Under the pieces are notes generated by a model. The model saw nothing but the letters and a program-made list of their open reading frames with translations, searched no databases and was not told the origin of the DNA. Source: Flavobacteriaceae bacterium LYZ1037 (GTDB lineage: Bacteria; Bacteroidota; Bacteroidia; Flavobacteriales; Flavobacteriaceae). Taken from it: 64,000 nucleotides of DNA. Of this stretch, positions 34,177 through 38,667 are shown piece by piece. The position numbers were made by a program, and so were the translations under genes. Within the stretch, counting starts at the first letter, position 1, and the number at the start of each line of letters is the position of its first letter. Where the stretch lies: positions 186,001-250,000 of the forward strand of contig QFWS01000001.1 in assembly GCA_003144015.1 (NCBI GenBank), given 5' to 3'.

Positions 34177-35916
34177 ATGAAAGTTTCAAAAGGTGTATTA
34201 TTCTTTTTATTGGTTAATTTAATGACTTGTAAAAATGACGAGGCTAGCAATACAATTGCTTCAGAAGATTTATTAGAAGATGTCATCAAAGCCTATGAAA
34301 CTGAAAGAGAATACGATTTTGAACCATTTGAATCCGTAGAAAATACAATTGCATTTTATCAAAAGGAAGCAACTTTTGCAGAAGAACTTCAACAGAAACT
34401 TTTAAAAGTTAATGAAGAAACTCTTACAGAGTCTGAGCAAATTTCTTTGGAATTATTACGTTTTGAACTTCAGGATAAAATAGATACAAATACATACAAA
34501 ATGTATCTAAATACCATTACGTCAGAATCGGCTTTTCATTTGAATTTAAGTAATATGGCTGATGTTAATTTTGAAGACTATGATGATGTCAAGGCCTATT
34601 TAGATAAATTAAACAAATTGCCAAAAACGGTAGATTATAACTTGGCATTATTACGGGAAAGCATCAAAGAAGGCATGACGCAACCAAAAGTTGTTTTTGG
34701 AGACTATAGCTATACTTACAACAAACATCTGGTTGAAGATTATACACAAAGTGACTTTTACCAGCCTTTTAATACCTTACCAGAAAGTTTAACCAGTCAG
34801 CAAAAAGATAGTGTTTTAACTGTAGCAAAAGCTAGTGTTGAAAATAATGTCGTTGGGCAATATCAAAAAATTAAAGACTTTTTTGAAATCGAATATTTCC
34901 CAAACTCTCGTACAGAATTAGGTATTACTTCTATACCAAATGGGGAAGCCTTTTATCAAAATAGTATTAATTATTTTACAACGAGTGATCAATATACTGC
35001 AGAGAATATTCATCAAATAGGATTAAAGGAAGTCGCCAGAATAAGAGCTAAAATGCAAGTAATTATTGACGAGTTAGGCTTTGAAGGAAGCTTTGCAGAT
35101 TTTCTAGCATTCTTAAGAACCGATTCGCAGTTTTATGCCAAAACGCCTAAAGAATTAATGATGTTTGCTAGAGATATTTCCAAACGGATTGATGGCGAAC
35201 TTCCAAAATATTTTAAAACCTTGCCTAGAAAACCTTATGGTGTCGTTCCAGTTCCTGAAGCTATTGCACCAAAATATACCGGAGGAAGATATTCAGGATC
35301 TTACGATGATAAAACAGCTGGATTTTATTGGGTGAATACGTATAATTTGCCAAGTAGAACCTTATATACTATACCAGCTTTGACTGCTCACGAAGCTGTT
35401 CCAGGACATCACTTGCAAATTTCCTTAAACAATGAGCTTGGCGATTCTATTCCACAATTTAGAAGAGACTTATATCTTTCAGCTTATGGTGAAGGTTGGG
35501 GATTATACTCCGAATATCTAGCTGATGAAATGGGCATTTATACCACACCATATGAGAAATTTGGTCAGCTAACATACGAAATGTGGAGAGCCTGTAGATT
35601 GGTTGTCGATACTGGCGTGCATGCTCTAGGATGGACACGACAGGAGGTTCTAGATTATCTGGCATCGAATACTGCTTTGTCTATTCATGAAGTAACTACA
35701 GAAACGGATAGATATATTTCTTGGCCAGCACAAGCCATTTCCTATAAAATTGGAGAGATAAAAATTAGGGAATTACGTGAAAAAGCAGAAACCGAATTAC
35801 AAGATAAATTCGATATTCGCGAGTTTCATGAAGTCATTTTAGGCGAAGGCACAGTGACTTTGTCTATTATGGAAGATAGAGTAAATAGTTATATTGAAGC
35901 TGTTAAAAATGAATAA
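34177..35916 (+). CDS. DUF885 family lipoprotein, probable zinc peptidase
   Basis: This 579-aa lipoprotein has the signal MKVSKGVLFFLLVNLMTC, with Cys18 as the likely lipid anchor. The C-terminal half carries the DUF885 metal motif HEAVPGHHLQ (HExxPGHH) followed by YGEGWGLYSEYLADEMG, whose Glu residues may complete a zinc site. DUF885 proteins resemble metallopeptidases but few are characterised. Its position between the semialdehyde dehydrogenase and epimerase genes, overlapping the latter by 8 bp, suggests it trims hydroxyproline-containing peptides outside the inner membrane. Confidence 0.88.
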   Translation: MKVSKGVLFFLLVNLMTCKNDEASNTIASEDLLEDVIKAYETEREYDFEPFESVENTIAFYQKEATFAEELQQKLLKVNEETLTESEQISLELLRFELQDKIDTNTYKMYLNTITSESAFHLNLSNMADVNFEDYDDVKAYLDKLNKLPKTVDYNLALLRESIKEGMTQPKVVFGDYSYTYNKHLVEDYTQSDFYQPFNTLPESLTSQQKDSVLTVAKASVENNVVGQYQKIKDFFEIEYFPNSRTELGITSIPNGEAFYQNSINYFTTSDQYTAENIHQIGLKEVARIRAKMQVIIDELGFEGSFADFLAFLRTDSQFYAKTPKELMMFARDISKRIDGELPKYFKTLPRKPYGVVPVPEAIAPKYTGGRYSGSYDDKTAGFYWVNTYNLPSRTLYTIPALTAHEAVPGHHLQISLNNELGDSIPQFRRDLYLSAYGEGWGLYSEYLADEMGIYTTPYEKFGQLTYEMWRACRLVVDTGVHALGWTRQEVLDYLASNTALSIHEVTTETDRYISWPAQAISYKIGEIKIRELREKAETELQDKFDIREFHEVILGEGTVTLSIMEDRVNSYIEAVKNE

Positions 35917-36919
35917 GAGCACTTTTGTTTGCATCGATGCACATACTTGTGGAAATCCTGTAAGAGTGATAAAGCAAGGTGGTCCAGAATTGGTTGGAAA
36001 TACCATGAGCGAAAAGCGTCAGCATTTTTTAAAAGAATACGATTGGATTCGAAAAGGTCTCATGTTCGAGCCTCGTGGTCACGACATGATGAGTGGCAGT
36101 ATTTTATATCCGCCGCATAACCCAGAAAACGATTTTGCCATTCTGTTTATAGAAACTTCCGGTTGTTTACCAATGTGTGGGCATGGCACTATTGGAACTA
36201 TAACTATTGCTATTGAAGAAGGCTTAGTAACTCCAAAAGTTCCTGGAAAAATTAGAATGGAAGCTCCTGCTGGTTTGGTTGAAATTAAATACCAACAAAC
36301 TGGAACAAAAGTCGATTGGGTAAAACTTACCAACGTAAAAAGTTATTTAGCAGCAGAAGGATTGACGGTTGATTGTCCAGAATTAGGAGAAATTAGGTTC
36401 GATGTGTCTTATGGTGGAAATTATTACGCCATTGTAGATCCACAACAGAATTTTTCTGGGGTTCAGGATTTTTCTGCTTCAAAAATCATTCAGTATTCGC
36501 AAGTGGTAAGACAACGAATTAACCAGAAATATCCTAATCTATTCATTCATCCAGAAAACGAAACTATTAAGGATGTGACACACATGCTTTGGACAGGAAC
36601 TCCTATCGATCCAACATCTTCTGGTAGAAATGCGGTATTTTATGGAGATAAAGCCATCGATAGAAGTCCTTGTGGTACAGGAACTTCAGCAAGATTAGCA
36701 CAATTATATGCTAAAGGAAAATTGAAAGTAGGGGAAGATTTTATTCATGAGAGTTTTATTGGAAGCAAATTTATTGGTCGTGTTGAAAAAGAAACTACTT
36801 TAGATGGTAAATTAGCTATTATTCCAAGCATACAAGGTTGGGCGAAAATTTATGGACATAATACCATTACTATAGATTCTGAAGACGATCCGTATGCGTT
36901 TGGTTTTCAGGTAATTTAA
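35909..36919 (+). CDS. 4-hydroxyproline 2-epimerase (proline racemase family)
   Basis: This enzyme epimerises trans-4-hydroxy-L-proline to cis-4-hydroxy-D-proline. The 336-aa product from ATG 35909 starts MNKSTFVCIDAHTCGNPVRV. Both catalytic cysteines of the family are present: Cys90 in LPMCGHGTIGT and Cys255 in DRSPCGTGTSAR, as expected for a racemase/epimerase and not a dehydratase. An ATG at 35894 is possible but would overlap the DUF885 gene more. Substrate choice over proline is inferred from the operon. Confidence 0.92.
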   Translation: MNKSTFVCIDAHTCGNPVRVIKQGGPELVGNTMSEKRQHFLKEYDWIRKGLMFEPRGHDMMSGSILYPPHNPENDFAILFIETSGCLPMCGHGTIGTITIAIEEGLVTPKVPGKIRMEAPAGLVEIKYQQTGTKVDWVKLTNVKSYLAAEGLTVDCPELGEIRFDVSYGGNYYAIVDPQQNFSGVQDFSASKIIQYSQVVRQRINQKYPNLFIHPENETIKDVTHMLWTGTPIDPTSSGRNAVFYGDKAIDRSPCGTGTSARLAQLYAKGKLKVGEDFIHESFIGSKFIGRVEKETTLDGKLAIIPSIQGWAKIYGHNTITIDSEDDPYAFGFQVI

Positions 36920-36924
36920 TTTTC

Positions 36925-36965
36925 AATGAAATAATGAAACAATGATTTAATGAACTAATAAATAA
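36925..36965 (+). repeat. 8-bp-period array upstream of the four-helix-bundle gene
   Basis: Units ATGAAATA, ATGAAACA, ATGATTTA, ATGAACTA and a decayed ATAAATAA follow one another from 36926. The 13-mer AATGAAATAATGA at 36925-36937 is present as an exact inverted copy at 37385-37397. Confidence 0.8.
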
Positions 36966-36969
36966 AATC

Positions 36970-37335
36970 ATGGATAAATCAGAATTTGTTGAGCAATTAA
37001 AGGATAGAACAAAGAAGTTAGCCGTAAATGTTATTTTGTTTTATGATGATATAAAAAAAACGGAAGCTACAAAAGTAATTGGCTATCAAATTATTAAATC
37101 TGTAACTTCAACTGCAGCAAATTATAGAGCCGCTTGTATAGCTCGTTCACAAAAAGAGTTTTTTGCCAAAATTTCCATAGTTGTTGAAGAAGCAGACGAA
37201 ACCTTATTTTGGTTAGAAATATTAAAAGACACAAAATTAGCTTCAGAAAAAGATTTAAAACCTTTAATAAGCGAAGCTTTAGAAATCCTTAAGATTGTTT
37301 CAAAAGCTAGGAAGAATATATATCCAAACAATTAA
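36970..37335 (+). CDS. Four-helix-bundle protein (23S rRNA IVS / S23-like family)
   Basis: The 121-aa protein is all helical: DKSEFVEQLKDRTKKLAVNVILFYDDI, VIGYQIIKSVTSTAANYRAACIARSQKEFFAKISIVVEE and LFWLEILKDTKL are cut from the typical four-helix-bundle (TIGR02436/S23) pattern, including the TSTAANYRAA and EADETLFWLE hallmarks. The family is known from intervening sequences in 23S rRNA genes and includes relatives of Avd of diversity-generating retroelements. Here it interrupts a catabolic operon and is bracketed by inverted 8-bp-period arrays, so it is probably a passenger and not part of the pathway. Confidence 0.9.
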   Translation: MDKSEFVEQLKDRTKKLAVNVILFYDDIKKTEATKVIGYQIIKSVTSTAANYRAACIARSQKEFFAKISIVVEEADETLFWLEILKDTKLASEKDLKPLISEALEILKIVSKARKNIYPNN

Positions 37336-37404
37336 CTCATTAACTCATTTACTCATTAACTCATTAACTCATTTACTCATTAACTCATTATTTCATTAAC
37401 ACAT
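37333..37404 (+). repeat. 8-bp tandem array downstream of the four-helix-bundle gene
   Basis: Nine units of 8 bp run from the gene's own stop codon: mostly TAACTCAT and TTACTCAT, then TATTTCAT and TAACACAT. Read in reverse complement they are ATGAGTTA-like, the same pattern as the upstream array in inverted orientation. Confidence 0.88.
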
Positions 37405-37419
37405 AAATAAACTGACTCA

Positions 37420-38667
37420 ATGTCAAAAAAAATAATCATCATAGGTGGCGGAATCATCGGTTTGTGTTCTGCTTACTATCTTCAAAAGGAAGGTCATCAT
37501 GTGACAATAATTGACCAATCCAACATGGATGCAGGTGCATCTTATGTCAATGCTGGGTATTTATCGCCAAGTCATTTGGTACCATTATCTGCTCCTGGAG
37601 TCATGAAAAAAGGTTTGAAATGGATGTTGAATCCAGCAAGTCCTTTGTATATAAAACCTCGTTTGGATGCCGATTTTATTAAGTGGACACTCGCTTTTAA
37701 TAAATCCTGTAATGCCAATCACGTTGAAAAAGCGATTCCTGTTATTAAAGAAATTACTTTATTAACTCAAGACTTATTCGATGATATAAAGCGTGATGAG
37801 AATTTCAGTTTTCAATATGAAAAGAAAGGCTTGCTTATGTTATGTCAGACAGATAAAATGCTTGAAGAAGAAATTGAAACAGCACATATCGCAAAACAAG
37901 AAGGGTTAGATGTCGATGAAATCAGTAAAGAAGAATTACAAGTTCTTGAACCCAATGCGACCTTCAATATTAAAGGTGCAGCTTATTATAAATGCGACTC
38001 CCATACTACGCCTCATGAGTTTATGACAGAAATGAAAGCCTATTTGAAAGCCGCTGGAGTTACGCTTTTTTCTAATGAGAGAGTTGAAAATTTAGTAATC
38101 AATAATGGAAAAATTGAAGCTGTTAAAACACAAAACCAAATTTTAAAAGCTGATGAATTTGTGCTTGCAGCTGGTTCGTGGAGTTCTTTATTAAGTAAGA
38201 AATTGGGTTTAAAATTATTGCTTCAAGCAGGAAAAGGCTATCGGATTAATACCACACAAAACACAGGAATTACTATTCCTTCCATTTTAGCAGAAGCCAA
38301 AGTAGCAGTTACACCAATGAATGGCTTTACACGTTTTGCTGGCACGATGGAAATAGCAGGTATTAACGATAAAATCAATAAAGTTCGTGTAGAAGCTATT
38401 GCAAAAGCTGCTAACAGTTTTTATCCAGATGTTACTCTAACACATGAAGAAAAAAACAATGTGGCTTCAGGTTTGCGCCCAGTGTCTCCAGATGGTTTGC
38501 CTTATATTGGGAAATCTTCAAAATGCGATAATCTAACCATTGCAACAGGTCACGCCATGATGGGTTGGAGTATGGGTCCAGCTACTGGAAAATTGGTTTC
38601 AGAAGTTATTTCAGATAAAAAAAGTACATTAAATTTAAATCCGTTTCATCCAGATAGAACCTTTTAG
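37420..38667 (+). CDS. FAD-dependent D-amino-acid (D-hydroxyproline) dehydrogenase, DadA-like
   Basis: This 415-aa flavoprotein has an N-terminal FAD-binding motif (IIIIGGGIIGLCSAYYLQ), a DAGASYVNAGYLSPS segment and a C-terminal SGLRPVSPDGLPYIG followed by ATGHAMMGWSMGPATGK. This is the DAO/DadA pattern. In the pathway it would oxidise cis-4-hydroxy-D-proline to pyrroline-4-hydroxy-2-carboxylate, the substrate of the DapA-family enzyme. It follows the four-helix-bundle cassette by 84 bp and precedes the aminopeptidase by 2 bp. Confidence 0.92.
   Translation: MSKKIIIIGGGIIGLCSAYYLQKEGHHVTIIDQSNMDAGASYVNAGYLSPSHLVPLSAPGVMKKGLKWMLNPASPLYIKPRLDADFIKWTLAFNKSCNANHVEKAIPVIKEITLLTQDLFDDIKRDENFSFQYEKKGLLMLCQTDKMLEEEIETAHIAKQEGLDVDEISKEELQVLEPNATFNIKGAAYYKCDSHTTPHEFMTEMKAYLKAAGVTLFSNERVENLVINNGKIEAVKTQNQILKADEFVLAAGSWSSLLSKKLGLKLLLQAGKGYRINTTQNTGITIPSILAEAKVAVTPMNGFTRFAGTMEIAGINDKINKVRVEAIAKAANSFYPDVTLTHEEKNNVASGLRPVSPDGLPYIGKSSKCDNLTIATGHAMMGWSMGPATGKLVSEVISDKKSTLNLNPFHPDRTF

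Follow-up and report, generated by a model that had tools for sequence, protein, structure and literature searches.

We analyzed a 64,000-nucleotide window of the 3.19-Mb genome of Flavobacteriaceae bacterium LYZ1037. At the locus studied here, a single four-helix-bundle gene lies between two protein genes, outside any rRNA gene, and is enclosed by two arrays of short words that are inverted to each other (Table 1). As read from the sequence, the S23 ORF has the same orientation as the host operon. The neighbors are the two hydroxyproline-pathway enzymes mentioned in a preliminary description of this DNA. Upstream lies a 4-hydroxyproline epimerase (NF010578, 588 bits against a cut-off of 376). 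The downstream enzyme, a DadA-like FAD oxidase, scored below the cut-off of each family among the best 25 of the 76 matches listed.

Table 1. Features of the cassette and its neighbors, in window coordinates
Feature	Position	Strand	Basis or remark
Upstream host gene, 4-hydroxyproline epimerase	35894..36919	+	ORF start listed as TTG at 35894; true start possibly more internal
5' arm, degenerate 8-bp array, unit AATGAAAT / AATGAnnT	36925..36965	+	Tandem Repeats Finder, period 8, 5.2 copies, score 47; inverted pair with 3' arm
13-mer with exact reverse complement at 37385-37397	36925..36937	+	Read off the sequence
Four-helix-bundle gene (S23/TIGR02436, PF05635), 121 aa	36970..37335	+	Profile matches
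3' arm, ATTAACTC in nine units of 8 bp, in inverted orientation to 5' arm, overlapping the stop codon	37331..37404	+	Tandem Repeats Finder, period 8, 9.2 copies, score 113
Inverted copy of the 13-mer	37385..37397	-	Read off the sequence
Downstream host gene, DadA-like FAD-dependent amino acid dehydrogenase	37420..38667	+	
Whole block between both host genes	36920..37419	+	Missing in its entirety where relatives have a closed junction

The S23 identity proposed for the enclosed gene is borne out by a profile search, in which it scored 71.6 bits against TIGR02436 and 49.3 bits against PF05635, above the respective cut-offs of 24 and 33.8. The best named match of the protein is an identical one in Xanthomarina spongicola, which makes Xanthomarina (Flavobacteriaceae) the most likely genus of the window. 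In an alignment of 29 relatives, Q40, S47, N51, and E77 were invariant, and a profile of these relatives matched PDB entries 2rld and 2gsc. We found no Rfam family match in positions 36000 to 38500. A consensus scan, which is weak evidence in this respect, listed no promoter-like site on the plus strand from 36920 to 37420; none would be expected if the gene is transcribed as part of the operon.

The arms are unusual for this window. The 60-nt stretches at 36907-36966 and 37356-37415 are 73% complementary, and the exactly inverted 13-mer noted in the preliminary description was not equaled in any of 500 dinucleotide shuffles of the 3' flank (longest inverted match, 11). When the 150-nt flanks of the 46 genes in the window were scored for inverted similarity, the four-helix-bundle gene ranked first with 41, and the next gene reached 25. 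The word pair ACTCATTNACTCATT is confined to this locus in the window genome (6 overlapping matches), and the loci that we labeled L003 to L008 are overlapping matches of this same array. Chance repeats were ruled out by the shuffles and the window-gene controls. Thus, the inverted arrays of 8-bp period that had been described on both sides of the gene are real, but the 3' array runs over the stop codon. Moreover, both the word and its period of 8 bp are features of this protein lineage and not of the family.

We surveyed the epimerase/oxidase junction by searching 40 relatives with the oxidase, 18 of which matched at an E value of ≤1e-60. The full block was present in the window genome and in genome G007, with nine versus seven units in the 3' array. 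The gene is also kept in G013, from another genus, where the arrays have the same words but the 5' one is long and the 3' one short. G005 and G002 (L101 and L102) carry a decayed gene and remnants of both arrays between neighbor genes that are still open, and in G003 (L098) the gene is gone, leaving an array with 22 copies of GAATAR and then a remnant of the old 3' array. Other junctions are closed: the host genes are separated by 1 nt in G004 (L100), by 11 nt in G006, where a word-like scrap is retained, and by one base to some twenty in L106, L108 to L110, L112, and L113. Arms and gene are therefore present, decayed, or absent together, the exception being L098, in which arrays outlasted the gene. 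Three loci (L105, L107, and L111) had different upstream neighbors. In G001 (L099), the junction is filled by an unrelated ORF of ∼90 codons without obvious arms.

The empty sites that the preliminary description had proposed to look for thus exist, the array-gene-array block being missing in L100, L106, L108 to L110, L112, and L113. A role of the arrays as transposon ends was not supported. We saw no target-site duplication by eye when filled and closed junctions, which are short and diverged, were compared. At the junction of the window, how far the four-helix-bundle protein has diverged is weakly to moderately correlated with the divergence of its two neighbors (r, 0.45 and 0.56; 105 pairs from 15 loci).

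The cassette layout is much more general than the single locus in the window. The S23 family is multicopy, with 2 to 14 matches per genome in eight genomes of the genus, and of the genomes searched it occurs in 74 of 100 from the same bacterial family (at most 17 matches each) and in 114 of 148 from the phylum. Both nearest ORFs were co-directional with the S23 gene in 230 of 249 rows, mostly from Bacteroidota; L240 is apparently the same place as L036, so that these rows represent at most 248 places. By set, the counts were 87/87, 57/60 (held-out copies), 22/29, 21/23 (2 at contig ends), and 43/50. The control comes from the window alone, where co-directionality held for 24 of its 46 gene triples and for 33 of its 47 junctions. 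The first set comprises 89 loci less L015 and L026, dropped because they lie at contig ends, and a decayed copy (L263) was excluded from the set of 23. The 60 held-out copies came from the top of the list of places without a locus and are therefore better-scoring members; we passed over three rows for in-frame stops, although a fourth such row was kept, and three more at contig ends or in a fragmented assembly, and two were already in the set.

We defined a site by the homology of both neighbors, which splits some places, e.g., L081, L071, and L094 by methionine synthase genes. The first 147 copies occupied 68 junctions when both neighbors had to match and 55 groups when either one sufficed. 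The three orientation exceptions among these copies are singletons, and hence 65 of 68 junctions conform. L206 and L207 are antisense to both neighbors, and L184 and L199 have a convergent downstream gene. In three Planctomycetota loci (L287, L291, and L301), the S23 gene lies 3' of the signal recognition particle (SRP) RNA (RF00169), with dnaX downstream and clear arms in L291; the upstream partner thus need not be a protein gene. Published tables hold further copies. A four-helix-bundle gene of Flavobacterium columnare is listed among phage elements between guanylate kinase and nicotinate-nucleotide adenylyltransferase, 34 to 36 nt from both neighbors by the published coordinates (PMC5524665). 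In another report, a copy of Flavobacterium psychrophilum is listed with altered expression in biofilm (PMC5787105), which indicates that such genes can be transcribed.

To score arms, we took the best local match between the 150-nt upstream flank and the reverse complement of the downstream flank. For the 87 copies, the median score of a gene's own arms was 25, compared to 17 for mismatched arms, and 25 copies lay above the 99th percentile of mismatched pairs (distal flanks, 0 of 87). The held-out 60 gave medians of 23.5 and 16, with 11 copies over the 99th percentile and none of 60 for distal flanks. Among distant relatives, mostly Bacteroidales, the medians were 38.5 and 18, and 11 of 50 exceeded the 99th percentile (50 of 56 loci, the six with short flanks being excluded). 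Shuffle, similarity, and swap tests used those 128 of the 147 copies that had at least 15 nt on both sides. At a P value of <0.01 against shuffled flanks, 66 of the 128 had inverted arms and 13 had direct ones. The proposed enrichment of arrays beside this gene family is therefore strong in other genomes, but 62 of 128 copies had no inverted arms that beat shuffles at this threshold. The arms of L033 and L051 are direct and not inverted. Base composition is skewed in a mirrored fashion: G exceeds C in the upstream arm of 107 copies and falls below it in 14, and the downstream arm shows the reverse (107 and 17).

Some arrays were overgrown on one side, with 13 copies of GGTCAGT in L039, about nine copies of a 14-bp unit, counted by eye, in L083, and 13 copies of GAGTAA in L120. 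An assembly gap (a run of N) falls within the array of L010; such arrays may therefore break assemblies and be undercounted. L032 (G002) has a tandem duplication that extends into host sequence: a second copy of the 5' part of the element, together with the end of the upstream gene, lies downstream (direct score, 172).

Which word the arms carry depends on the protein lineage and not on the site. Different lineages carry different words, among them GTGAAAC, TTTGACAATT, TTAGTGTTTGG, AAGGCATA, CAGTCTCAGT, and AATCAAGA. For pairs at different junctions, arm similarity was 0.139 when the proteins were less than 35% identical (n = 5113) and 0.31 when they were at least 65% identical (n = 34), a difference reached in none of 2000 permutations. 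This association remained when all pairs sharing even one homologous neighbor were removed (0.139, n = 5096, versus 0.291, n = 30; 0 of 2000 permutations). Pairs at the same junction with less than 45% protein identity had an arm similarity of only 0.14 (n = 127). When arms were swapped between same-site pairs at 45 to 55% protein identity, own arms matched better than swapped ones (25.5 versus 14.8; 39 pairs, 4 sites). The gap was 26.3 versus 20.4 at 55 to 65% identity, and own and swapped arms hardly differed at 65% and above (24.8 versus 23.7 and 25.3 versus 25.2). It is important to note that the pairs in the similarity and swap tests are not independent of one another. The window lineage illustrates the pattern, as its core word AATGAnnT occurs at three junctions. 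The epimerase/oxidase junction carries it in many genera. In Aquimarina it is found where a 103-aa ORF precedes a LytTR response regulator, and in Roseivirga and a Flavobacteriaceae MAG it is found at an aldehyde dehydrogenase/epimerase junction (the last two junctions labeled from tests on L253 and L256).

We next consider how often copies have changed place. On a protein tree of 131 rows and 119 columns with many open forks, the 12 sites with at least three copies required 15 changes, against a minimum of 11. Sites were thus mostly occupied once and then inherited, and movement is rare. Some junctions have probably been taken more than once. At sdhA/sdhB (site 3; tested on L009), two of 3 changes are forced by starred branches, and the copies L009/L010/L013, L029, and L042 bear three different words; at the junction of a FadB-like protein and a thiolase (site 0; tested on L018), starred branches force 1 of 4 changes. 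High protein identity also occurs at different junctions (L040/L042, 81.5%; L033/L051, 80.7%). At most compared sites, flanks and element diverge alike. The median dN/dS was 0.108 (64 pairs), which shows purifying selection on the four-helix-bundle protein. Between L002 and L036, a tract of ∼750 nt is 98.5 to 100% identical per 150-nt window, compared to 81 to 96% around it, which suggests local exchange in this one case. In L034 (G006) and L048 (G005), the element and the ends of the neighboring genes are 100% identical, although the two genomes differ at the window junction; this may reflect recent transfer or shared contamination.

From this distribution we infer that the cassette may be mobile. 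The preliminary description had inferred a repeat-bounded cassette that moves, and one part of that idea holds, in that arms track the protein lineage over unrelated operons, but mobility in the present day is unsupported, sites being mostly occupied once and then inherited.

Certain copies lie at the division of a gene or within one. At site 2 (L001, L017, and others), the cassette sits exactly where methionine synthase is split into two ORFs; in L001, the profile was matched up to position 338 in one and from 339 on in the other. In L187, L190, and L209, the S23 gene and its flanks lie inside an N6_N4 methylase ORF, and in L208 they lie inside an N6-methylase with a DUF559 end. The outer frame of these four copies is another frame on the same strand and is free of stops through the whole insert, whereas such a frame was open in 0 of 177 other copies. 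It stayed open in 107, 38, 206, and 74 of 2000 synonymous reshuffles of the four copies, respectively. L187 and L209 are alike, so that there are at most three independent cases. We rejected in-frame fusion as an explanation for L187, L190, L208, and L209, as the S23 ORF has its own stops and the outer ORF runs in another frame.

The GxxExxY family (TIGR04256; Pfam PDDEXK_3), intended as a control, resembled the S23 family: 26 of 29 copies were co-directional with both neighbors, and own arms had a median score of 29, compared to 18 for mismatched arms. Three of the 29 were above the 99th percentile (40), a value that shared words may raise. Of 37 loci, eight that were partial or at contig ends were excluded, including three that had been part of an earlier count of 7/7 co-directional copies. 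The words here are CACAGAGATT, CGCAAAGG, CACGAAT, and CGCAGATTA. With comparable anatomy and other words, this family indicates that the anatomy is not private to the four-helix bundle. L114 and L116 have nearly identical GxxExxY flanks in G005 and G006, which again points to exchange between these two genomes.

The known system closest in anatomy is the intervening sequence (IVS) of 23S rRNA genes in Leptospira, Coxiella, and others, an element of similar size (428 nt in Coxiella) that has an S23/PF05635 ORF and complementary borders and is excised by RNase III (PMC4990558). In both, the borders are able to pair with the ORF between them, the ORF runs in the sense of its transcribed host, and the distribution is patchy. 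That paper describes S23 proteins as having no known function and traces IVS mobility to a hypothesis in papers of 1990 and 1993 (PMC4990558). The operon cassettes differ from the rRNA IVS in that they lie in mRNA junctions, are bordered by tandem arrays of degenerate words where the IVS has a single 28-bp stem (PMC4990558), reach up to 17 matches per genome, and encode a protein under clear purifying selection. Not being in rRNA, the cassette falls outside the rRNA IVS as defined; it agrees on the other features that could be tested. Long inverted ends made of short tandem subrepeats are also found in Drosophila foldback elements, much like the cassette arms, but these elements are eukaryotic, much larger, and tied neither to operons nor to a protein lineage. 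Correia elements and other bacterial MITEs are non-coding and have one shared end sequence, whereas each protein lineage of the cassettes has its own word. They are alike in being short and having inverted ends, and RNase III can bind and cut Correia elements (PMC2649163).

The reading that we favor, on which our confidence is evenly balanced, is that a sense cassette of ∼470 bp, consisting of a word array, an S23 gene, and an inverted word array, works like the 23S rRNA IVS but in mRNA. Such a cassette would depend on transcription that reads through the host operon. Pairing of the arms in that transcript could form a long imperfect hairpin with the gene in its loop, a structure that may be processed without harm to the neighboring ORFs. 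The protein, a relative of Avd, would recognize its own word, and this would explain why word and protein change together. Arms and gene would on rare occasions be copied jointly into another transcribed junction and then be inherited vertically for a long time; the copying enzyme would not have to be a resident reverse transcriptase. In the predicted RNA fold of 36905 to 37420, the arms form an outer stem that encloses the gene; at -86 kcal/mol, this fold is moderately better than those of shuffles (z, -1.86), 6 of 100 of which folded as well. Selection for RNA pairing was considered and set aside: it should yield an excess of G-U among arm mismatches, and the reverse was found (A-C, 122; G-U, 84), so such selection cannot be claimed, although an A-rich sense strand on both sides may confound this count. 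Recognition of the word by the protein would explain the co-inheritance of word and protein better than selection on RNA pairing.

The strongest competing account, which we consider unlikely but worth serious attention, is a resident, slowly evolving host regulator whose arms are an operator on mRNA or DNA, serving autoregulation or the tuning of the downstream gene, and which moves only with its operon. The low dN/dS (0.108), the long vertical inheritance at sites, the in-operon sense position (230 of 249 rows), and the co-variation of word and protein all fit an operator and its regulator. Such a regulator sits poorly with up to 17 matches per genome and 55 to 68 junctions among 147 copies, with closed junctions in close relatives, with the presence of three separate lineages with different words at sdhA/sdhB, and with the decayed copies L101 and L102 beside open neighbors. 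It is improbable that the arms are a functionless, neutral by-product that arose beside a gene when AT-rich intergenic DNA underwent slippage and inverted template switching. Fast change in unit number (9 versus 7) and overgrown arrays (L039, L083, L098, and L120) are what slippage would produce, but own arms match better than those of other copies and than shuffles, the word stays with the protein across unrelated sites, other genes in the window have no such arms, and comparable anatomy surrounds GxxExxY.

We regard as highly improbable a retroelement in which reverse transcriptase acts in trans and the Avd-like protein is an accessory factor, as in diversity-generating retroelements (DGRs). 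Its RNA intermediate would account for the near-strict sense orientation. PF05635 resembles Avd, whose four-helix bundle is homologous, and was the most common Pfam in a DGR survey (PMC10053308); 62% of DGR reverse transcriptases are reported to co-occur with an Avd-like domain (PMC8934634). Unlike in DGRs, RVT_1 had no match in the window genome, nor in 52 of 74 S23-positive genomes of the family, including G014 with its 17 copies, and a reverse transcriptase was therefore set aside as a requirement. We counted 117 S23 copies in 25 genomes with reverse transcriptase and 217 in 75 without, the higher mean in the former being perhaps a matter of genome size. Least probable, and only slightly entertained, is a DNA element resembling a MITE or IS, with a transposase working on its ends in trans. 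Inverted ends, multiple copies, and empty sites speak for it. Against it, there is no single shared transposase end, since the degenerate arrays at the ends differ between lineages in step with the protein that they enclose; inspection of the compared junctions by eye revealed no target duplication; and near-exclusive sense insertion in operons is unexpected of DNA transposition.

Returning to the cassette that works like an IVS in mRNA, we more tentatively suggest that it could belong to a passenger class as yet undescribed: sense-only cassettes in transcribed junctions, with inverted word arrays read by their own protein, in at least two families (S23 and the PD-(D/E)XK-type GxxExxY), spreading slowly between operons with protein and word matched, nesting in coding genes with the outer frame kept open, and having the rRNA IVS as the best known special case. 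We found no published description of such arms in open PMC papers, a body of literature that leaves most subscription journals and bioRxiv outside its coverage. With more than 200 natural copies, closed junctions, decayed copies, reused junctions, and a word that changes with its protein, function is directly testable. The cassette may benefit its host, and expression may be altered in the housekeeping operons that hold copies, such as those for succinate dehydrogenase, fatty-acid oxidation, and methionine synthase. If true, this reading would account for word-like inverted repeats between genes in the operons of Bacteroidota.
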